NCBI GenBank assembly: GCA_003132645.1
Contig: PKYM01000150.1
Span: 8,121-32,968 of the forward strand
DNA: 24,848 bases
Direction of reading: 5' to 3'
From: Actinomycetota bacterium
Lineage (GTDB): Bacteria; Actinomycetota; Thermoleophilia; UBA2241
Shown here: in pieces, positions 4,479-23,047 of the stretch
How positions within the stretch are numbered: position 1 is the stretch's first letter
Layout: every line of letters begins with the position of its first letter
Program-made: the position numbers and the translations under genes
Notes under the pieces: model-generated
What the model saw: only the letters and a program-made list of their open reading frames with translations
Database searches by the model: none
Told to the model about the DNA's origin: nothing

Positions 4479-5051
4479 TTACGGTTCCGCCACCTCGCTG
4501 GCGAGCATGACGGCCTCGGCGACCTCGCGCAGCGTCTTGCGCCTGTCCATCGCCTGCTTCTGCAGCCGCCGAAAGGCCTCCGCTTCGTCCATCCCCTTCG
4601 CCATGAGAGCGCCCTTGGCGCGCTCGACCACCTTGCGGGTCTCCAGCCTGTCGCTGAGATCGGCGATCTCCGCGGCGAGAGCGGCGGCCTCGGCAAAGCG
4701 GGAGACGGCGATCTGCATCGCCGGGATGATGTCGCTGCGCGAGAACGGCTTGACGACGAAGGCCATCGCTCCGGCGCGGCTGGCCTGCTCGACGAGCGCC
4801 GCCTGCGAGAAGGCGGTGACCATGACCACCGCGGCGAAGCGCTGATCGTTGATCGCCGCAGCCGCGTCGATACCGTTCATGCGCGGCATGCTGATGTCCA
4901 TGAAGACCACATCGGGTCGCAGCCGGCCGGCCAGCTCGACGGCCTCGAGGCCGTCGCGCGCCTCACCGACCACCTCGTGGCCTTCCTCAGCGAGCATCTC
5001 GCGCAGGTCCATGCGGATCAGCGCTTCGTCTTCGGCAATGATCACTCGCAT
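4479..5051 (-). CDS. pdtaR: ANTAR-domain response regulator (PdtaR-like RNA antiterminator)
   Basis: A 190-aa two-domain regulator. Residues 1-118 form a receiver domain with the acidic pair E7/D8, phospho-acceptor D52 (VVFMDISMP), T79 and K101 (VVKPFS). Residues 129-185 form an ANTAR domain (ERAKGALMAKGMDEAEAFRRLQ) of the AmiR/NasR type, which binds RNA rather than DNA. On phosphorylation such proteins dimerise and stabilise a two-hairpin RNA that prevents an overlapping terminator from forming. The gene follows its kinase by 32 nt in the order and orientation of actinobacterial PdtaS-PdtaR. A matching RNA target lies upstream of the divergent small gene at 6721, making that gene the obvious candidate for control. 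The symbol is given by similarity and synteny of type, not proven orthology. Confidence 0.93.
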   Translation of the reverse strand: MRVIIAEDEALIRMDLREMLAEEGHEVVGEARDGLEAVELAGRLRPDVVFMDISMPRMNGIDAAAAINDQRFAAVVMVTAFSQAALVEQASRAGAMAFVVKPFSRSDIIPAMQIAVSRFAEAAALAAEIADLSDRLETRKVVERAKGALMAKGMDEAEAFRRLQKQAMDRRKTLREVAEAVMLASEVAEP

Positions 5052-5083
5052 CGCTTGCCTTCTTTCCGGGCGGGCAGCGGTCG

Positions 5084-6493
5084 TCAGGGGGCGTCGGGTA
5101 AGGGTATGCGCATCGTCACAGTCGTGCCCCGTTCACTTGCCCAGGCGAGCGAGCCGTGCAGGTCGTCCTGCACAACCGTCCGCACGATGGCCACGCCGAG
5201 GCTTTGCGAGTCGGCGGGGTCGAAGCCGGGCGGCAGGCCGCGCCCGTCGTCGCTGACGGTGAGCTCGAGTTCCGCGGGCCCACGGCGCATGGCGACCTCG
5301 ATGGCTCCCCGTGCTCCGGGCTCGAAGGCGTGCTCGAAGGCGTTGTGCACGAGCTCCGCGACCGCCAGCGCCAGCGAGGTGGCCGTGCGCGCGTCGAGCT
5401 CGCCTGTACTTCCGCTGACAGCGACCGAGATGCCCGACTCCTCACCCACCAGGCCGTGCCGCACCAGGTCGACGACCGTGGCCGCGACCTCCGCGAAATC
5501 GACCCGCTCTTCGGTCGAGTGAGCGAGCAGATCGTGTACGACCGCCATCGAGGAGACGCGCTCAGTGGCCTCGGCCAGAGCTCGGCGCGTCTCCTCGCTG
5601 GAGCTGCGACGCGCCTGAATGCGAAGCAGCGAGGCGATCGTCTGGAGATTGTTCTTCACACGATGGTGGACCTCGCGGATGGTCGTGTCCTTGACTCTGA
5701 TCTCCTGCTCGCGGCGACGGGCCTCGGTCAAGTCCTCGACCAGTACCAGCGCGCCGGTCCTCAGGGCTATCGAGCGATAGCTGAGCACACGGCCGGCCGC
5801 CTCGGCTTCAGTGGCGCTGGCGCCGCGAGTGCCGAGCACGGGCGAGATGCCGAACCCGCCGCCGGGCAGCGTCGAGGCCCTCAGGCCCGTGACACGGCCC
5901 TCGACCCCAGCGAGCCGCATGACGGTGACGGCATTCGGCGAGGCGTAGGAGATCCGTCCCTTGGGATTCACGCGCAGCAGGCCGTCACCGGCACGTCGCG
6001 TCGTGGAGAAGGGATCGCCTGTCCGCAGGTCGATCAGAGGGCCGCCGTTCAGTGTATCGAGCAGCTCTCTGGCGGAGTCGGCAAAGGCTCGCTCCATCCT
6101 CCCGAGAGAAGCCGCCACCTGCTCGGCGAGGCTGCACACGACGACGCCGCAAGGTGTGGGCCGGCCGACGGGAAACGCGGCAACCGTGAACCTGACCTCC
6201 GACGCGAGGCGCGGGCCGTCGCTCTCGACCGGCCGGCCGAGCTGCAGCGCGGCATAGGCCTCGGGCTCCCCATCGCGCACCAGCAGGCAGCCCGCCCGCG
6301 ACGACGCGAACGGAGCCATGGCCGTACTGGGACGCGCGTCCGCGCGCACGGTGAGCTCGCCGTTCAGGTCGGGGACGGCAAGCGCGACGTCTCCGTAGCT
6401 GAGATCGGCCACGAGCTGAAGGTTGTCGGCGACGTTTGTGAGGTGGACCTCAGTCTCCTCGACAGGCGCCGACGCGCGATCCGACGTGATCAT
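5084..6493 (-). CDS. pdtaS: PdtaS-like sensor histidine kinase (GAF-PAS-HisKA_2-HATPase)
   Basis: A 469-aa soluble kinase. Residues about 12-150 resemble the GAF-type N-terminal domain of PdtaS (NLQLVADLSYGDVALAV). Residues about 165-260 form a PAS domain (LLRVNPKGRISYASPNAV). The HisKA_2 dimerisation helix carries EVHHRVKNNLQTIASLL, with H276/H277 as phospho-acceptor. The ATPase domain has an N box (LAVAELVHNAFEHAF, N384) and a DDGRGLPPGFD G box. It should phosphorylate the ANTAR regulator encoded immediately downstream. No membrane segment is seen, so it likely senses a cytoplasmic ligand. The ATG at 6493 has no Shine-Dalgarno sequence, but a TATACT box ends 7 nt before it, predicting a leaderless mRNA. 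Confidence 0.93.
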   Translation of the reverse strand: MITSDRASAPVEETEVHLTNVADNLQLVADLSYGDVALAVPDLNGELTVRADARPSTAMAPFASSRAGCLLVRDGEPEAYAALQLGRPVESDGPRLASEVRFTVAAFPVGRPTPCGVVVCSLAEQVAASLGRMERAFADSARELLDTLNGGPLIDLRTGDPFSTTRRAGDGLLRVNPKGRISYASPNAVTVMRLAGVEGRVTGLRASTLPGGGFGISPVLGTRGASATEAEAAGRVLSYRSIALRTGALVLVEDLTEARRREQEIRVKDTTIREVHHRVKNNLQTIASLLRIQARRSSSEETRRALAEATERVSSMAVVHDLLAHSTEERVDFAEVAATVVDLVRHGLVGEESGISVAVSGSTGELDARTATSLALAVAELVHNAFEHAFEPGARGAIEVAMRRGPAELELTVSDDGRGLPPGFDPADSQSLGVAIVRTVVQDDLHGSLAWASERGTTVTMRIPLPDAP

Positions 6494-6500
6494 GGCATGA

Positions 6501-6506
6501 AGTATA
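6501..6506 (-). promoter_or_regulatory. -10 box predicting a leaderless transcript of the sensor kinase gene
   Basis: On the minus strand TATACT occupies 6506-6501 and is followed by 7 nt before the A of the kinase ATG. A sigma-70-type start would therefore fall on, or within a base of, the initiation codon. This fits the absence of any purine-rich ribosome site before that codon. No strong -35 is visible at 17 nt (CGAACA). Leaderless mRNAs are common in actinobacteria. Confidence 0.55.
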
Positions 6507-6563
6507 GAGGGCGAGTCGGCCGATGTTCGGCATATTCCTCAGGGAAACGGGTAGATTCTCTTA

Positions 6564-6611
6564 CGGCACAACGGTGTGCCGACAGATTGAGATGGGAGCA
6601 ATGGCGCTCCC
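6564..6611 (+). promoter_or_regulatory. ANTAR target RNA: two hairpins with A1/G4 hexaloops
   Basis: Hairpin P1 has a 6-bp stem (6564-6569 CGGCAC with 6576-6581 GTGCCG) closing the hexaloop AACGGT at 6570-6575. Hairpin P2 has a 6-bp stem (6594-6599 GGGAGC with 6606-6611 GCTCCC) closing the hexaloop AATGGC at 6600-6605. Both loops have A at position 1 and G at position 4, the defining feature of ANTAR-binding RNAs. The linker is 12 nt. The 3' strand of P2 is also the 5' strand of the terminator at 6606-6632, so the two are mutually exclusive. A possible -10, TAGATT, is at 6552-6557. The element lies between the ANTAR operon and the 52-aa gene, and it is oriented to control the latter. Confidence 0.88.
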
Positions 6612-6668
6612 CGGTCTTTTCGACCGGGGGGCTTTTTTTGTTTCACCAATCTGTCGGCACACCGGTGT
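6568..6668. repeat. 22-bp inverted repeat enclosing the ANTAR P2/terminator
   Basis: Bases 6568-6589 are the reverse complement of 6647-6668 with one mismatch in 22. The left arm covers the end of the P1 5' stem, its loop, its 3' stem and the linker. The right arm lies just after the terminator. In RNA the two arms could pair and would then unfold P1. In DNA they could be paired protein sites or ends of a very small element; no target-site duplication is visible. Confidence 0.85.
6606..6639 (+). terminator. Intrinsic terminator overlapping ANTAR hairpin P2
   Basis: An 11-bp stem pairs 6606-6616 with 6622-6632, with one T-G wobble, around the loop TTTTC. It is followed by seven T residues (6633-6639). 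The first six bases of its 5' strand are the 3' strand of ANTAR hairpin P2, so forming P2 would break the terminator. It lies 82 nt before the start codon of the 52-aa gene, the arrangement expected of a conditional attenuator rather than an end-of-gene terminator. Confidence 0.9.
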
Positions 6669-6720
6669 CAGGTGTCGGCAACCAGGTCTGGCGAGACTGC
6701 GTGACTAGTGGAGGTATGAG

Positions 6721-6879
6721 ATGGACTATCTGACTGAACACCCGAACGCCATGCCCGTGCGGGAAGCGGCGATGACCTACCTGTTCAGCGATGTGCCCCC
6801 AGTGCTGCGCCTGGTTCCCGCGCCGCGCGACGACTACCCGGAAGTCACCTACCAGGAGCCGGAAGCTCGCGGCGCCTGA
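6721..6879 (+). CDS. 52-aa small protein downstream of ANTAR leader, function unknown
   Basis: A 52-codon frame starts with ATG at 6721 behind a strong GGAGG site (6710-6714, 6-nt spacing) and ends at TGA 6877-6879. It starts MDYLTEHPNAMPVREAAMTY and continues with a proline-rich, acidic C-terminal half (VPAPRDDYPEVTYQEPEARG). It has no Cys, no hydrophobic membrane span and no signal peptide; Tyr residues lie at 3, 20, 39 and 44. Codons are GC3-rich, consistent with real coding. It is the only gene between the ANTAR leader and a very strong hairpin at 6904-6949, so it appears monocistronic. I do not recognise a family; a small regulator, a protein-binding peptide or a peptide precursor are all possible. 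No modifying enzyme is adjacent. Confidence 0.75.
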   Translation: MDYLTEHPNAMPVREAAMTYLFSDVPPVLRLVPAPRDDYPEVTYQEPEARGA

Positions 6880-6903
6880 CTCGCGAGGCGAGACGCGACC
6901 GCC

Positions 6904-6949
6904 GACCGGGCCGGGCCGCCCATCTGAAGATGGGCGGCCCGGCCCGGTC
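6904..6949. terminator. Very strong hairpin between convergent genes
   Basis: Bases 6904-6925 are perfectly complementary to 6928-6949. Sterically this gives a 21-bp stem with a TGAA tetraloop. It sits 24 nt after the stop of the 52-aa gene and 60 nt before the stop of the convergent gene at 7010. No T-tract follows on either strand. It probably serves as a bidirectional transcript end or RNA-stabilising hairpin. Confidence 0.7.
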
Positions 6950-9133: not shown

Positions 9134-10378
9134 TCAGCTCCTCGTCGTCGCCCCGCGAACCGTCATGGCACGCAGCCGCAAGGCAAGCACTTCAAGGTCG
9201 TCCCCGAGCCGACCCGCAAACGCGGTCGCCTCGTCGCGCACACCCTCCGCGACTTCTTGAGGACTGCGGTCTCTCAGTCCCGAGACCGCCTCGACCAGTC
9301 GAGTCTCCCCGAACAGCTCGCCGGCGCGTCGCGCCTCGGTGACTCCGTCCGTATAGAAGACGAGGCAGTCGTCGACTGCGAGCGTCAGGTGAGAATCGAG
9401 GTAGTCCTCGTCGAAGGCGCCGAGGGGAATGCCGAACGAAGCGTCAAGCAGCCGGCAGCGCCGGGCATTGACCAGGACGGGAGGCGGATGGCCGGCGCTC
9501 GCATAGGTGGCCCGCCCCGTCTCTCTGTCCAGGACAAGAAGGAACGCAGTGACGAACTCGTCCTGGATCTCACGTCGCAGCAGCAGCTGATTGGTCTTTC
9601 TCAGGATGAAGGCCGGGGAGGTGTCGACCGTGGAGAATGCTCTCACCGCGCTGCGCACCCGTTCGGTCAGGCCCGCGGCACGGATCCCCTTGCCGGCGAC
9701 ATCGCCGATGAGAACGGCGACGAGCGAATCGTCGATGAGAAAGACATCGCTGAAGTCGTCCCCCACGCGCTCAGGCTGAAACGCCGTCTCCATGACCAGA
9801 CCCGTGTCGAGCCCCTCAACTTGAGGCAGTGGGCTCAGGAAGTTCTCCTGGAGGGCCACCGCGATACGGCGCTGCTCCTCGAAGCGCTGCGCGTTCTCGA
9901 TCGCGGCCTGCTCAGATGCGAGCCTCGCCATCGTGCTCTCGAAGAGGCCGGCGATCGCCAGGTAGATATCGAGCAGGGACTGGGACAAAGGCTGGCTGGC
10001 CCGGTGGCCGATGAGCAGCCCCGCGTCCGTCTGCTGGCCACCTGCCAGAGGCAGCAGGACGATGGCGTAGTCGTGATCTGGCAAGGCGATCAGCTCGCTG
10101 GCGAGAAAGCCGCTGTCGAGCACCTGGCGGGCAGTCTCTCGCACCTGATCGGCAAGACGATCGCAGGCCTGCGGCGCCGAAAGCGTGCAGTAGAGCGGAG
10201 TGATCGCGCCGTCGGGACGGCGCTCGAGCAAGGCGACGAGGTCCGCGCCAAAGAAACGGACCAGCACCTGCCCCAACTCCCGCCAGATGTCGGTTTCGCC
10301 ACTCAACAAGGCCAGATATTGGGCGGTCCGCAGCACCGCCGTGAGATCGTCTGCGCGCTGTTCGACGACCTCGCTCAC
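9134..10378 (-). CDS. GAF-domain SpoIIE-type serine/threonine phosphatase (PP2C)
   Basis: A 414-aa protein with an N-terminal GAF-like sensor region (about 12-160), a coiled linker (QFEEQRRIAVALQENFLSP-like, 165-183) and a SpoIIE/RsbU phosphatase domain (about 190-405). Metal-binding motifs are VGDDFSDVF (D208, D211; the usual VGGDFYD is altered at two positions), IGDVAGKG (D226), FYTDGVTEAR (D344) and LGDDLEVLAL (D393/D394). Such phosphatases usually dephosphorylate anti-sigma antagonist proteins. The GTG start at 10378 overlaps the stop of the UroD-like methyltransferase in a GTGA, implying translational coupling. A phosphatase tied to a corrinoid methyltransferase operon is unusual; the partner kinase and antagonist are not in the window. 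Confidence 0.9.
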   Translation of the reverse strand: MSEVVEQRADDLTAVLRTAQYLALLSGETDIWRELGQVLVRFFGADLVALLERRPDGAITPLYCTLSAPQACDRLADQVRETARQVLDSGFLASELIALPDHDYAIVLLPLAGGQQTDAGLLIGHRASQPLSQSLLDIYLAIAGLFESTMARLASEQAAIENAQRFEEQRRIAVALQENFLSPLPQVEGLDTGLVMETAFQPERVGDDFSDVFLIDDSLVAVLIGDVAGKGIRAAGLTERVRSAVRAFSTVDTSPAFILRKTNQLLLRREIQDEFVTAFLLVLDRETGRATYASAGHPPPVLVNARRCRLLDASFGIPLGAFDEDYLDSHLTLAVDDCLVFYTDGVTEARRAGELFGETRLVEAVSGLRDRSPQEVAEGVRDEATAFAGRLGDDLEVLALRLRAMTVRGATTRS

Positions 10379-11388
10379 GAGTCGCTGTGGACCGCCGATA
10401 CCAGGGCGGCGATGTTCTCGGGTTTGGCTTCGAGCGGGATCTCACAGCCAGACGAGAGGATGAACCCGCCGCCCTCGGCGAACAGCTCCACGAGGCGGCG
10501 CCCCTCGGTGGCGATCTCGTCCGCCGAACCCAGGACGAACGAGAGCGGGCGGATGTTCCCGTCGAGGCAGGTGTGCGACAGGATCTGCCGGGCGCGCAGG
10601 GGATCGGCATCGTAGTCAACGTTCGCGATGTCCACGCCGGCCTGCGGATAGTAGCCCAGGATCTGTTCGGTCGCCCCCGCGATGTGCAACCAGGTGGCCA
10701 GCGCCCCCGCCTTCTTGAACGCCGCGAACAGCTCTTTGAGGCGCGGCAGCAAAAGCTCTCGAAAGAACGCCGGCGGCACGACGGCCGGCGAGGCCGCCGG
10801 GTCGAACACCATCGCGACGTGAGCGCCGGCCGCCAGCAGGGCCTGGCCGTAGCGCAGCGCGCTTCGGGTCGCGAAATCGAGCAGCTCCTCGAACCGTTGC
10901 GGCTCATCGACGGCGAGAAAGAGAGCCGCTTCGGGACCCGCAAGCTGCTGGGCCAAAGTCATCGGTCCGGCCACGACCCCGATCACCGGCAGCTCGTCTT
11001 CGAACTCGGCGCGCAGCAGGGTGGTGGCCCTCAACAGCTCCGGCATACGCCCTGCGCACTGCGGGTCGGGCACGGACAGACGATCGACCGGGACGTCGGG
11101 GGTGAGCGCATAGGAGACTACCTGCGGATACTGCTGTTCGTGGTAGGCAAGGACCGAACCCAGGGCCTCCGATTCGACGCAAGCGTCCATGAAGGCAAAG
11201 GCCGCGTCGCAACCGTACTGCCGCACCGCCTCGATCTGGCAGCGCGCAAGCAGGGCGCCGTCGCGCACATAGTCGGCGATCGGCACCCCCGCCAGCACGG
11301 CCGCGTGGGCGAAGATCTGGGGGATCACGGGCGTGCGGTCCGCCTTTTCGAAGGCGACCGTGGCGCGCACGCGCTCGAGGCTGTTCAC
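10375..11388 (-). CDS. Uroporphyrinogen decarboxylase-family corrinoid methyltransferase
   Basis: A 337-aa UroD-fold protein of the methylcobamide:CoM methyltransferase-like (MtaA/MtbA, CmuA C-terminal) branch. It shows the N-terminal ERVRATVAFEKADRTPVIPQ block, VIGVVAGPMTLAQQLAG, and the barrel segments around residues 230-260 and 305-318. In MtaA/MtbA the zinc site is His-x-Cys plus a distant Cys; here H235 and C315 (LSSGCEIP) are present but the middle ligand is A237 (WLHIAGAT). The GTG at 11388 is chosen because AGAGAGG lies 6 nt upstream and it makes a GTGA overlap with the corrinoid protein gene. It should act on the adjacent corrinoid protein, either delivering a methyl group to an acceptor or demethylating a substrate. 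Confidence 0.85.
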   Translation of the reverse strand: MNSLERVRATVAFEKADRTPVIPQIFAHAAVLAGVPIADYVRDGALLARCQIEAVRQYGCDAAFAFMDACVESEALGSVLAYHEQQYPQVVSYALTPDVPVDRLSVPDPQCAGRMPELLRATTLLRAEFEDELPVIGVVAGPMTLAQQLAGPEAALFLAVDEPQRFEELLDFATRSALRYGQALLAAGAHVAMVFDPAASPAVVPPAFFRELLLPRLKELFAAFKKAGALATWLHIAGATEQILGYYPQAGVDIANVDYDADPLRARQILSHTCLDGNIRPLSFVLGSADEIATEGRRLVELFAEGGGFILSSGCEIPLEAKPENIAALVSAVHSDS

Positions 11389-12014
11389 GCCGGCCTCTCT
11401 GCCAGGCACGATTCCAGCAAGCGGGCGCCGTCGAAGGCCGTCTGCGCTACGTAGTCGACGTCGAGCTCCTCTGTCGAGGCTTGCCTGAGGGCGGCTCCAC
11501 CCGCCAGGATCTTCACGTCGAAGAGCCCGCGTTCGGCGAGGGCCGGCCTGACGCGGCGCACCTGGGGGATGACCGTGGTGAGCAAGCCGCTCAGAAGGAC
11601 CGCGGCTGCCTGCTCACGTTCCACCGCCTCGCTCAGTGCGCTCACCGGGCAGTTCCGGCCCAGATCGACGACTCGGTAACCTTTGCCGGTGAGGACCATG
11701 GTCACGATGTTCTTGCCAAGGTCGTGCACGTCGCCTTCGGGAGTGGCGATCACGACGGTCGCCTTGCTGCGATCGGGGGGTATCCCCCGCAGGTAGAGCT
11801 CGTTTGCCACCACGGTGACGGCCCGCCCCACCAGCATGATCTCGAGGAGATTGAAGGCTTCGACCGTGCACTTCGCATCGACTTGCTCCATGGCGGTCTC
11901 GAGGCCTTCGTTGACGATGCGTTCGACCGGGACGCCGGCATCGCGCAGCCGCTGCGCCTCGGCCAAGGCCGCGGCGCTGTCGCCGTCGGTAAGGGTCGCG
12001 ATCAGTCGCTGCAT
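11385..12014 (-). CDS. Corrinoid (B12-binding) methyl carrier protein, MtxC type
   Basis: A 209-aa protein with the two-domain layout of methanol/methylamine corrinoid proteins: a helical cap (about 1-80, LLEIMLVGRAVTVVANEL) and a Rossmann B12 domain (about 85-205). The cobalt-ligand motif is DVHDLG at 95-100 (H97), followed by SGLLTT (S142, L144) and AGGAA (172-173). It shuttles the methyl group between a substrate methyltransferase and an acceptor methyltransferase. The ATG at 12014 puts the start a few residues before the first helix, as in the family. Alternatives are ATG 12032, and GTG 12137 with AGGGG upstream, which would add an 11-residue repeated sequence. It overlaps the downstream UroD-type gene by a GTGA. 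No RamA-like reactivase is seen. Confidence 0.88.
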   Translation of the reverse strand: MQRLIATLTDGDSAAALAEAQRLRDAGVPVERIVNEGLETAMEQVDAKCTVEAFNLLEIMLVGRAVTVVANELYLRGIPPDRSKATVVIATPEGDVHDLGKNIVTMVLTGKGYRVVDLGRNCPVSALSEAVEREQAAAVLLSGLLTTVIPQVRRVRPALAERGLFDVKILAGGAALRQASTEELDVDYVAQTAFDGARLLESCLAERPA

Positions 12015-12069
12015 GCCGGAGTTTCTCACCATTCTTGCCGCACGCACACACCGTAGCTGATGGAACGGA

Positions 12070-12135
12070 TTTTCGGCAACCGCACTCTGCCGCTCGGGCA
12101 GGTTTTCGGTAGTCGCGCTCTGCCGCTCAGACGGC
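12070..12135. repeat. Degenerate 33-bp tandem repeat before the corrinoid gene
   Basis: Two units, 12070-12102 and 12103-12135, share TTTTCGG at their left ends and CTCTGCCGCTC in their middle. The period of 33 is a multiple of three, so the minus-strand frame of the corrinoid gene stays open across both units and would read ERQSA-x-x-EN twice. It is either an N-terminal extension repeat or a duplicated regulatory site. Confidence 0.6.
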
Positions 12136-12185
12136 ACGGCGACCGCCCCTGCTCGTGCTCGGCGACTACTCGGGGATAGGACGGA

Positions 12186-18384: not shown

Positions 18385-18672
18385 GTGGAAAAGAGGCTCG
18401 GTACCATCTCGATCATCGTGGAACGGCAGCGGGCGCCGGTGGCCACGGTCAATGAACTGTTGAGCCAGTTCGGCGACTGCCTCCTCGCGCGTCTCGGCCT
18501 GCCCTTTCCCGATCGCGGCGTGAACATCATCACGCTGGTCACCGATACCTCGGTCGAGCGCCTCAGCGCGCTCACCGGCAAGCTGGGCAAGCTCCCGGGC
18601 GTTCAGGTCAAGTCCATGATGGCCAAGCCGCTCGAAGAGGGAGTTGCCCACGATGATCCACCCGACGACTGA
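18385..18672 (+). CDS. TM1266-family [FeFe]-hydrogenase-associated regulator
   Basis: A 95-aa protein of the TM1266 type, a ferredoxin-like fold related to the ligand-binding domain of NikR and found beside hydrogenase maturation genes. Typical features are the opening RLGTISIIVERQ, the central LPFPDRGVNIITLVTDTS and the helix-strand end KLPGVQVKSMM. It has no DNA-binding domain, so any regulatory role must use another mechanism. The GTG at 18385 has GGGAG 7 nt upstream. Its 3' end overlaps the hydG start by 20 nt, so the two are translated together. Confidence 0.85.
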   Translation: MEKRLGTISIIVERQRAPVATVNELLSQFGDCLLARLGLPFPDRGVNIITLVTDTSVERLSALTGKLGKLPGVQVKSMMAKPLEEGVAHDDPPDD

Positions 18673-20059
18673 CGGTCTAGTCGACTTCATCCCCGCCGCA
18701 CGACTCGAGGAGCTGCTGCGCCGCCCGGCCGCCCAGGCGCCCGAGGTACACGAGGTGCTGGCCCGCTCCGCGGCCAAGCAGCGCCTGACGCTCGACGAGA
18801 TGGCGGCGCTGCTCTCGGTCGCCGATCCCGGCCTTCAGGACGAGATGTTCGCCACCGCGCGCGAGCTCAAGAAGACCGTCTACGGCAACCGCATCGTCCT
18901 GTTCGCGCCGCTGTACATCGGCAACAAATGCACCAACGCCTGCCGTTACTGCGGCTTTCGCTCAGACAACCATGACATCGTGCGGCGCACCCTCACAGAC
19001 GACGAGCTGCGCGCCGAGGTGCTGGCGCTGATCGGCAAAGGCCACAAGCGCCTCGTGATCGATTACGGCGAGCACCCCGACTACGGCGCCGAGACCATCG
19101 CCCACGCGGTCGAGGTCATCTACGCTACGAAGTCCGGCTCGGGCGAGATCCGCCGCGTCAACGTCAACTGCGCACCGCTCGATGTGGCCGGCTACCGTCT
19201 GATGAAAGAGGTCGGCATCGGCACCTACCAGATCTTCCAGGAGACCTACCACCGGCCGACCTACGCGGCGATGCACCCGCGCGGCAACAAGGCCGACTTC
19301 CTCTGGCGCCTCTACGGCCAGGACCGCGCCATGGAGGGCGGCTGCGACGACGTCGGCCTGGGGGCGCTCTTCGGCCTCTACGACTGGCGCTTCGAGGCCC
19401 TGAGCCTGCTGGCCCACGCCATCCATCTCGAGGAGACCTTCGGCGTAGGCCCGCACACGTTCTCGTTCCCGCGCCTGAAGGACGCCAGCAACCGCGACCT
19501 CGACCCGCGCTACGCGACAAGCGACGCCGACTTCAAGCGTCTCATCGCCATCCTGCGCCTCGCGGTGCCCTACACGGGGATGATCCTCACCGCGCGCGAG
19601 CCGGCGCGGCTGCGCCGCGAGCTCATCGAGTTCGGCGTCTCGCAGATCGATGGCGGCACGCGCATCGAGCTCGGCGGCTACAGCGAGGCCGCCCAGAACC
19701 AGGACCTCGAGCGCGAGCAATTCCGCATCGGCGACGAACGCCCGCTCGATGAGATCGTCAGCGAGCTGCTGGACATGGGCGAGATCCCCTCGTGGTGCAC
19801 CGCCTGCTACCGCAAAGGACGCACTGGGGAGCACTTCATGGAGTTCGCCATCCCCGGCTTCATCAAGCGCTTCTGCACCCCGAACGCGCTGCTCACGCTC
19901 AAGGAGTACCTGAGCGACTACGCCTCGGACGAGGTGGTCGCCAAGGGCGAGCGGCTGATCGCAGCCGAGCTCGCCGCCCTGCCGGACAGCGACGCCACGA
20001 GGTTGCTCGTCGAGCGTCTCGGCGCCATTGGTGACGGGCAGCGCGACCTGTATTTCTGA
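18653..20059 (+). CDS. hydG: [FeFe]-hydrogenase maturase HydG (radical SAM tyrosine lyase)
   Basis: A 468-aa radical SAM enzyme. C93, C97 and C100 (NKCTNACRYCGFR) form the CxxxCxxC site for the SAM cluster. The C-terminal CX2CX22C motif, C382, C385 and C408, is diagnostic of HydG over ThiH and binds the auxiliary cluster on which the Fe(CO)2(CN) synthon is built. The enzyme cleaves tyrosine to supply CO and CN for the H-cluster. GGTRIELGGYS (334-344) and the end GDGQRDLYF are also typical. The ATG at 18653 is preferred (GAGGGAG 10 nt upstream) over the TTG three codons earlier. hydA, hydE and hydF are not in the window. The last 67 bp are duplicated at 22981-23047. Confidence 0.95.
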   Translation: MIHPTTDGLVDFIPAARLEELLRRPAAQAPEVHEVLARSAAKQRLTLDEMAALLSVADPGLQDEMFATARELKKTVYGNRIVLFAPLYIGNKCTNACRYCGFRSDNHDIVRRTLTDDELRAEVLALIGKGHKRLVIDYGEHPDYGAETIAHAVEVIYATKSGSGEIRRVNVNCAPLDVAGYRLMKEVGIGTYQIFQETYHRPTYAAMHPRGNKADFLWRLYGQDRAMEGGCDDVGLGALFGLYDWRFEALSLLAHAIHLEETFGVGPHTFSFPRLKDASNRDLDPRYATSDADFKRLIAILRLAVPYTGMILTAREPARLRRELIEFGVSQIDGGTRIELGGYSEAAQNQDLEREQFRIGDERPLDEIVSELLDMGEIPSWCTACYRKGRTGEHFMEFAIPGFIKRFCTPNALLTLKEYLSDYASDEVVAKGERLIAAELAALPDSDATRLLVERLGAIGDGQRDLYF

Positions 20060-20060
20060 G
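19994..20060 (+). repeat. hydG 3' end, left copy of a 67-bp direct repeat
   Basis: The last 66 bp of hydG plus one base match 22981-23047 at 63 of 67 positions. Identity starts inside the codons for ATRLLVER and stops abruptly one base after the stop codon, after which the flanks differ completely. This copy is the intact one. Confidence 0.95.
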
Positions 20061-22950: not shown

Positions 22951-22984
22951 TGGCGAGCAGAGCGCAGTCCCCCTCTGCTCGCCA
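22951..22984. terminator. Perfect 12-bp hairpin after the LolA-like gene
   Basis: Bases 22951-22962 pair perfectly with 22973-22984 around a 10-nt loop. It lies 20 nt after the stop of the LolA-like gene, in the space before the convergent membrane-protein gene. No T-tract follows. The right arm shares its last four bases with the repeated hydG 3' end. Confidence 0.6.
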
Positions 22985-23047
22985 CGAGGTTGCTCGTCGA
23001 GCGCTTCGCCGCCATTGGTGACGGGCAGCGCGACCTGTAGTTCTGAG
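22981..23047 (+). pseudogene. Duplicated fragment of the hydG 3' end with premature stop
   Basis: This 67-bp stretch is 63/67 identical to 19994-20060. In the hydG frame it reads ATRLLVERFAAIGDGQRDL and then TAG, where hydG has TAT (Tyr). No other hydG-like sequence precedes it. It is therefore a fragment, either a scar of an insertion that duplicated the target or the tail of a lost second hydG copy. Confidence 0.9.

Follow-up and report, generated by a model that had tools for sequence, protein, structure and literature searches.

A probable ANTAR antitermination leader ahead of an unannotated small-protein gene beside a PdtaS/PdtaR-like pair in an actinobacterial draft genome

Introduction

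How is a 52-aa gene controlled that lies behind a leader with two hairpins and an intrinsic terminator, next to genes for a histidine kinase and an ANTAR-domain response regulator? This question is raised by a 24,848-nt stretch of DNA from a draft genome of Actinomycetota (GenBank assembly GCA_003132645.1, contig PKYM01000150.1), which was analyzed as a whole and is hereafter called the window. An initial annotation, made from the sequence, had proposed that these elements form an ANTAR antitermination circuit with the small gene as its output, and this overall interpretation gains support from the conservation of the locus in a second genome and from the database relatives of the small protein. 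Here, we argue that positions 6552-6949 probably form a transcription unit with a single gene, governed through ANTAR antitermination by a PdtaS-like/PdtaR-like pair and with the 52-aa protein as its output. Judged from its sequence, the leader is an ANTAR antitermination leader and thereby a known kind of switch; what would be new is the small-protein family that forms its output.

Results

The leader and its overlapping hairpins

The initial annotation had described two 6-bp hairpins with A1/G4 hexaloops, an 11-bp terminator with a T7 tract that reuses the 3' strand of the second hairpin, and a strong ribosome site ahead of a 52-aa gene; each of these elements was borne out on direct reading, and a script recovered both hairpins as well (Table 1). 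Six bases, 6606-6611, form both the 3' arm of P2 and the start of the terminator stem, so that P2 and the terminator are mutually exclusive. With 6 bp each, the two stem-loops exceed the 3-bp minimum for ANTAR-target RNAs, and A1 and G4, the loop bases expected of such targets, occur in both AACGGT and AATGGC. In the predicted fold of P1, A1 pairs with U6 to give 7 bp and a tetraloop. Folding by transcript length places P1 and P2 in an RNA ending at 6612 and the terminator in RNAs ending by 6630-6636, with predicted energies of -10.6 kcal/mol for P2 and -22.9 kcal/mol for the terminator. A consensus promoter scan recovered neither the TAGATT box noted by eye (6552-6557) nor any promoter of the kinase operon.

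Table 1. Coordinates of the features of the locus within the window, with their strands.
Feature	Position	Strand	Description
PdtaR-like response regulator	4479-5051	-	Receiver and ANTAR RNA-binding domain, 190 aa; Pfam Response_reg 3.4e-27, ANTAR 1.3e-19
PdtaS-like cytosolic histidine kinase	5084-6493	-	469 aa; Pfam GAF_PdtaS, HisKA_2 and HATPase_c
-10-like box TATACT of the kinase operon	6501-6506	-	By eye; also 5' of the kinase ATG in G001
Possible leader -10 box TAGATT	6552-6557	+	By eye; RNA start would fall just 5' of P1
P1 hairpin	6564-6581	+	6 bp, cggcac-AACGGT-gtgccg, hexaloop AACGGT; read directly and recovered by script
Inverted repeat, arm 1	6568-6589	+	P1 loop, P1 3' arm and linker; 21/22 complementary to arm 2
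P2 hairpin (putative antiterminator)	6594-6611	+	6 bp, gggagc-AATGGC-gctccc, hexaloop AATGGC; read directly and recovered by script
Intrinsic terminator	6606-6639	+	11-bp stem 6606-6632 (9/11 pairs G-C), T7 at 6633-6639
Inverted repeat, arm 2	6647-6668	+	Immediately 3' of the terminator; in the predicted fold of readthrough RNA, takes the place of P1
Shine-Dalgarno GGAGGT	6710-6715	+	Read from sequence
Putative output gene, 52 aa	6721-6879	+	Unannotated family; 22 database relatives
Perfect 22-bp inverted repeat, 2-nt spacer	6904-6949	.	Perhaps 3' end of the small transcript

With a pair defined as A1/G4 hexaloop hairpins 3-45 nt apart, none whose stems reached 6 bp arose when the whole window was put through 40 dinucleotide shuffles; a stem limit of 5 bp gave 0.075 pairs per shuffle (at most one in any of the 40), never together with a terminator. 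A generic two-hairpin model (R2), built from 16 synthetic sequences of which none was taken from an organism, scored the window leader at 31.5 bits and the leader of a second genome, G001, at 37.5 bits, the next best score in 43.9 kb being 22.3 bits; over 150 kb of other loci (81.5 and 68.5 kb), the maximum was 16.0 bits. The initial annotation had also suggested scoring the leader against the ANTAR family of Rfam, and this gave no ANTAR match at either the gathering or a permissive threshold. At the gathering score, Rfam release 15 had no matches in the window, and permissive scans returned eight sub-threshold matches in 6500-6760 and five in the G001 leader, none of them to an ANTAR family.

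Conservation and layout of the cassette

The initial annotation held that its reading would be refuted by relatives that keep the small gene and lose the A1/G4 loops or the overlap of P2 with the terminator. G001, a genome of the same genus and the only other one found to have the small gene (1/1), keeps both hairpins, their A1/G4 loops and the overlap. Its P1 reads tggcac-AAGGGT-gtgccg and its P2 gggagc-AACGGC-gctccc; relative to the window, the third base differs in both loops, with A1 and G4 unchanged in both. The terminator stem is identical, the T tract of G001 is interrupted, the P1-P2 linker (12 nt in the window, 10 nt in G001) shows three substitutions and a 2-nt deletion, and the flanks have diverged. 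Between these leaders, which represent the two species that give leader DNA, a single stem pair varies, one-sidedly, from C-G to U-G. The 52-aa protein is 47% identical between the two genomes, the kinase 62% and the regulator 76%. In G001, too, GGAGG precedes the small-gene ATG, and a GC-rich hairpin is predicted 3' of the gene as it is in the window.

In G001, one strand carries the leader, small gene, kinase and regulator; in the window, the first two of these run opposite to the kinase and regulator. TATACT stands immediately 5' of the kinase ATG in both, from which we infer that it was the cassette of leader and small gene that became inverted. The divergent kinase/ANTAR pair at 4479-6493 of the initial annotation stands as a pair of genes, identified by their Pfam domains, but not in its divergence; judging by this comparison, the divergent arrangement is not part of the module. 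Among the 15 genomes of the family, the own one included, the two with the small gene are the only two with a full-length match to the regulator at E 1e-20, the match in G010 being confined to residues 2-126. Since both genomes with the small gene and the regulator belong to one genus, this co-occurrence may reflect a single event.

The small protein family

The 52-aa protein has no Pfam match at E 0.001 and no NCBIfam match at E 0.1, and its G001 counterpart has a single NCBIfam match, which at 14.8 bits stays below the cut-off of 131. Searches for the small gene returned two matches among 60 relatives, with the own genome included, two among 15 genomes of the order, and four among 399 genomes of the class at E 0.01; of these four, two are the own genome (G000) and G001, and the other two are partial, at about 18 bits. 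Among 396 genomes of the phylum, a set for which the sampling of G001 is not shown, the single match was the own genome, and a scan of GTDB contigs gave one locus, PLTW01000246.1 (Actinomycetota bacterium isolate bog_752), which we take to be that of G001. A profile search recovered 22 database proteins, which together with the window and G001 sequences make up 24 rows with 11 invariant columns and a conserved N-terminal motif of consensus MDYLLEHPTAMPVxEAAMTYLF. Structure prediction gave no confident fold for the 52-aa protein with either five input sequences (mean pLDDT 78.2, pTM 0.52) or 24 (mean pLDDT 62.0, pTM 0.16). As delimited by these searches, the small protein predicted as the output belongs to an unannotated family restricted to the clade.

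Four of the 22 database proteins (P0004, P0010, P0014 and P0020) have 32-40 extra N-terminal residues, and all of these, the only ones with more than 30, contain the peptide MALPG (4/4); the remaining 18 of 22 have at most 10 residues upstream. In the window, MALPG is the peptide encoded by P2 and the 5' arm of the terminator, and translation from the ATG in the P2 loop gives MALPGLFDRGAFFV across P2, the terminator and the T-run. The four relatives seem to retain the P2/terminator sequence 5' of the small gene, with peptides that imply G4 of P2, not A1, and that are silent on P1; long gene calls of this sort presuppose a frame that is open by chance and hence form a selected sample. The four calls themselves are likely annotation errors in which a regulatory RNA was rendered as protein, the start lying apparently in the P2 hairpin.

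The kinase and the ANTAR regulator

Together, the receiver-ANTAR regulator and the GAF_PdtaS/HisKA_2 kinase have the domain composition of a PdtaS/PdtaR two-component system. Residues 2-182 of the 190 of the ANTAR protein match PDB 1s8n, a 'putative antiterminator' (E 5.8e-65), and the kinase matches PDB 2ykf, the sensor part of PdtaS (E 1.6e-16). The Cu/NO cysteines of M. tuberculosis PdtaS are those of 53-CVAQC-57, according to the available text of PMC8131098; at these two positions the window kinase aligns V and A, and it has no Cu/NO motif of the CVAQC dicysteine type. On its domains, we class the kinase as PdtaS-like, with no claim as to Cu/NO.

Leaders elsewhere in the genome and in related loci

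The own draft genome gave one ANTAR match. A model built from the two leaders of the window and G001 (R1) had the window leader as its sole match in this genome at E 10 or better, and the pattern GCAANGNNGC followed by T5 14-40 nt later matched once, with none in the reversed control; this pattern misses the G001 leader on account of its interrupted T tract. At 87.95% completeness, the assembly could lack further leaders, so that the count of one ANTAR gene and one leader in the draft genome, and with it the description 'single target', is provisional.

Candidates for further leaders were rejected. In the own genome, a P2-like pattern with up to two mismatches gave 293 matches against 336 in the reversed control, and so no enrichment; among the matches listed, there were seven other places with one mismatch, of which six were scored with R2 and five were read, none exceeding 22.3 bits. 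In relatives, R1 matched in 13 of 60 genomes at E 1 or better, with 14 places beyond the two leaders, none above 21.9 bits; the nine of these 14 weak places that were read by eye looked chance-like. G001 has three further weak R1 matches, of 18.4 bits and below, and the P2 core followed by T5 occurs in 9 of 15 genomes at counts similar to the reversed control; of these matches, the one in the own genome and one in G016 were taken further.

In all eight loci retrieved from one family of the same class (f3), a related kinase/ANTAR pair has a glutamine synthetase gene 5' of it (Pfam-checked in one), as against none of three loci retrieved from other families. All seven f3 glutamine synthetase leaders with a visible start (L087, L088, L089, L090, L092, L093 and L094) have a GAGGC-RAYGNN-GCCTC hairpin that overlaps a terminator, and in most the hairpin comes just 3' of a -10-like box. 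No P1 was seen in these leaders, and the first loop base is G in five of the seven; by eye, the glutamine synthetase genes of G000 and G001 have no such leader.

Two other sites in these loci also have a P2-like hairpin with a terminator: one, in genome G016, stands before a P-II/ammonium-transporter gene pair (L087, ~5319, minus strand; Pfam-checked), and the other, in G036, before a second glutamine synthetase gene (L094, ~653, minus strand). Each has an upstream hairpin whose loop starts with G rather than A.

Repeats in the window

An element overlooked by the initial annotation is the inverted repeat of 6568-6589 and 6647-6668, whose 22-nt arms flank P2 and the terminator. Its complementarity of 21/22 compares with a best value of 15/22 in 40 shuffles of 6494-6720, and in the predicted fold of an RNA reaching 6666 the repeat helix, a duplex of -37.2 kcal/mol, supplants P1. 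The repeat is absent from G001 (best 13/22); the P0004 peptide implies a near copy of the second arm in this close relative, and no such copy follows from the P0010, P0014 or P0020 peptides. As a speculation from the predicted fold, the repeat could free the ANTAR dimer after readthrough, or it could be a by-product of rearrangement.

Elsewhere in the window, a radical SAM/BATS gene has its 3' end duplicated 3 kb away, as a 68-nt direct repeat (94% identical, 19993-20060 and 22980-23047). This gene, which we take to be HydG-like, adjoins a gene for a TM1266-like iron-only hydrogenase regulator, the two together lying at 18385-20059. Genes for MttB-type methyltransferase, URO-D-family and B12-binding proteins are found at 17-1453 and 10375-12137.

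Discussion

The available text of PMC3369931 describes how phosphorylation-induced dimers of EutV bind a two-hairpin RNA and thereby cause antitermination, and from this precedent we infer the same mechanism here, with the small gene as the output. RNA polymerase would start just 5' of P1, at the putative promoter, and the terminator at 6606-6639 would be its default stop. The adjoining PdtaS-like kinase would phosphorylate the PdtaR-like ANTAR protein, a dimer of which would grip P1 and P2 by way of their A1/G4 loops; with the 3' arm of the bound P2 withheld, the terminator would not form and the 52-aa gene would be transcribed. Activation by readthrough is accordingly only the presumed direction of control. 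The M. tuberculosis kinase is constitutively active and ligand-inhibited, so that the signal could instead switch the 52-aa gene off, and PdtaR binding in that organism is only partly phosphorylation-dependent (both from the available text of PMC8131098).

The same leader might be read in other ways. The terminated leader RNA (~6563-6639) could itself be what the locus is there to make, titrating the ANTAR protein as a decoy, with readthrough into the small gene being incidental. RNAs of the EutX/Rli55 type are decoys of this kind, and the leader adjoins the sole ANTAR gene found in the draft genome. The available text of PMC8131098, moreover, refers to ANTAR-titrating small RNAs of Listeria and Enterococcus and shows such RNAs in M. 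tuberculosis. We nevertheless hold a decoy to be distinctly improbable: no second leader was found in the draft genome as a competitor for the protein, and the 52-aa ORF has its own Shine-Dalgarno sequence and the 11 invariant columns over 24 rows, which incidental readthrough would not preserve. An ordinary terminator-attenuator that is not bound by ANTAR, in which P1 and P2 are incidental and readthrough is set otherwise, would agree with the lack of an ANTAR-family match in Rfam and with the tetraloop fold that P1 may adopt. It accords poorly, however, with a hairpin pair that arose in none of 40 shuffles, with the retention in G001 of A1 and G4 in both loops despite a third-position change in each, and with an ANTAR gene that adjoins the leader in both species, and we regard it as quite unlikely.

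Translation of an upstream ORF is, in our estimate, extremely unlikely to be what governs readthrough. Such an ORF would begin at the ATG in the P2 loop (6601) and run for 35 codons to 6708, its ribosome disrupting the terminator; the frame is open in the window, and the four long database calls start at or just before the same place. Yet those calls are the selected sample in which the frame is open, and in G001 the corresponding codon is ACG, in a frame that differs from that of its small gene. Antitermination by the ANTAR protein is thus the reading we prefer. It can be extended to a minimal closed circuit in which the leader is the single RNA target, the 52-aa protein feeds back on either the kinase or the regulator, and the arm at 6647-6668, by invading P1 after readthrough, ejects the dimer and resets the circuit. 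We think this joint reading unlikely; if true, each antitermination event in the window lineage would reset itself and the regulator would be recycled.

The glutamine synthetase leaders of the f3 loci, which come from the same class, resemble the window leader in the overlap of a hairpin with a terminator near a related kinase/ANTAR pair. They differ in having one hairpin, and R2 reaches at best 16.0 bits in the eight f3 loci; it is possible that they represent a single-hairpin variant of ANTAR control. The available text of PMC3369931 reports ANTAR-type RNA matches that, in other bacteria, precede genes for P-II, ammonium transporters and glutamine synthase. We rejected the link to nitrogen as a direct clue to function, given that none of the three other-family loci has the glutamine synthetase gene and that the f3 leaders fail R2; these leaders suggest that related pairs might have a nitrogen role and assign none to the window pair. 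The papers listed on ANTAR proteins with glnA leaders, glutamine synthetase, small proteins with an antiterminator, and Geobacter gave no sign of this arrangement, and in the available text of PMC8164766 'glnA' appears only in the title of a reference.

The interest of the locus is twofold. The regulator, its probable RNA target and one small-protein gene have remained neighbors despite an inversion, and with one ANTAR gene in the draft genome they would make an unusually clean system for testing antitermination and for finding out what a clade-restricted small protein does; the conserved N-terminal motif offers a handle on an unannotated protein family.

Among known systems, the pair is like mycobacterial PdtaS/PdtaR in its GAF_PdtaS kinase, its receiver-ANTAR regulator and the near end-to-end match of the latter to 1s8n; it differs in the lack of the CVAQC dicysteine and in that kinase and regulator are adjacent to each other and lie beside their probable RNA target. 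With the actinobacterial ANTAR RNAs (Mehta and Ramesh 2021, PMC8164766), the window leader shares the phylum and the dual A1/G4 hairpins. In the available text of that study, these RNAs number one to three per species in most species, about 37% overlap a ribosome site or start codon, and few stand upstream of a terminator; compared with this set, in which terminator-type leaders are thus reported to be few, the window leader is clearly of the terminator type. Its closest likeness in layout, as far as the available text of PMC3369931 describes them, is to the leaders of E. faecalis eut (EutV), Klebsiella nasF (NasR) and Pseudomonas amiE (AmiR), with which it has in common two hairpins, A1/G4 hexaloops, a short linker and the overlap with a terminator. 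By the same text, P2 of the window fits the eut motif AGCAANGRRGCUY at 12 of 13 positions, and the linkers of 12 and 10 nt (window and G001) are of a length seen in the E. faecalis eut leaders (5-12 nt). What sets the present leader apart from those of eut, nasF and amiE is its single 52-aa output gene and, in the window copy, an extra arm past the terminator that is complementary to P1.
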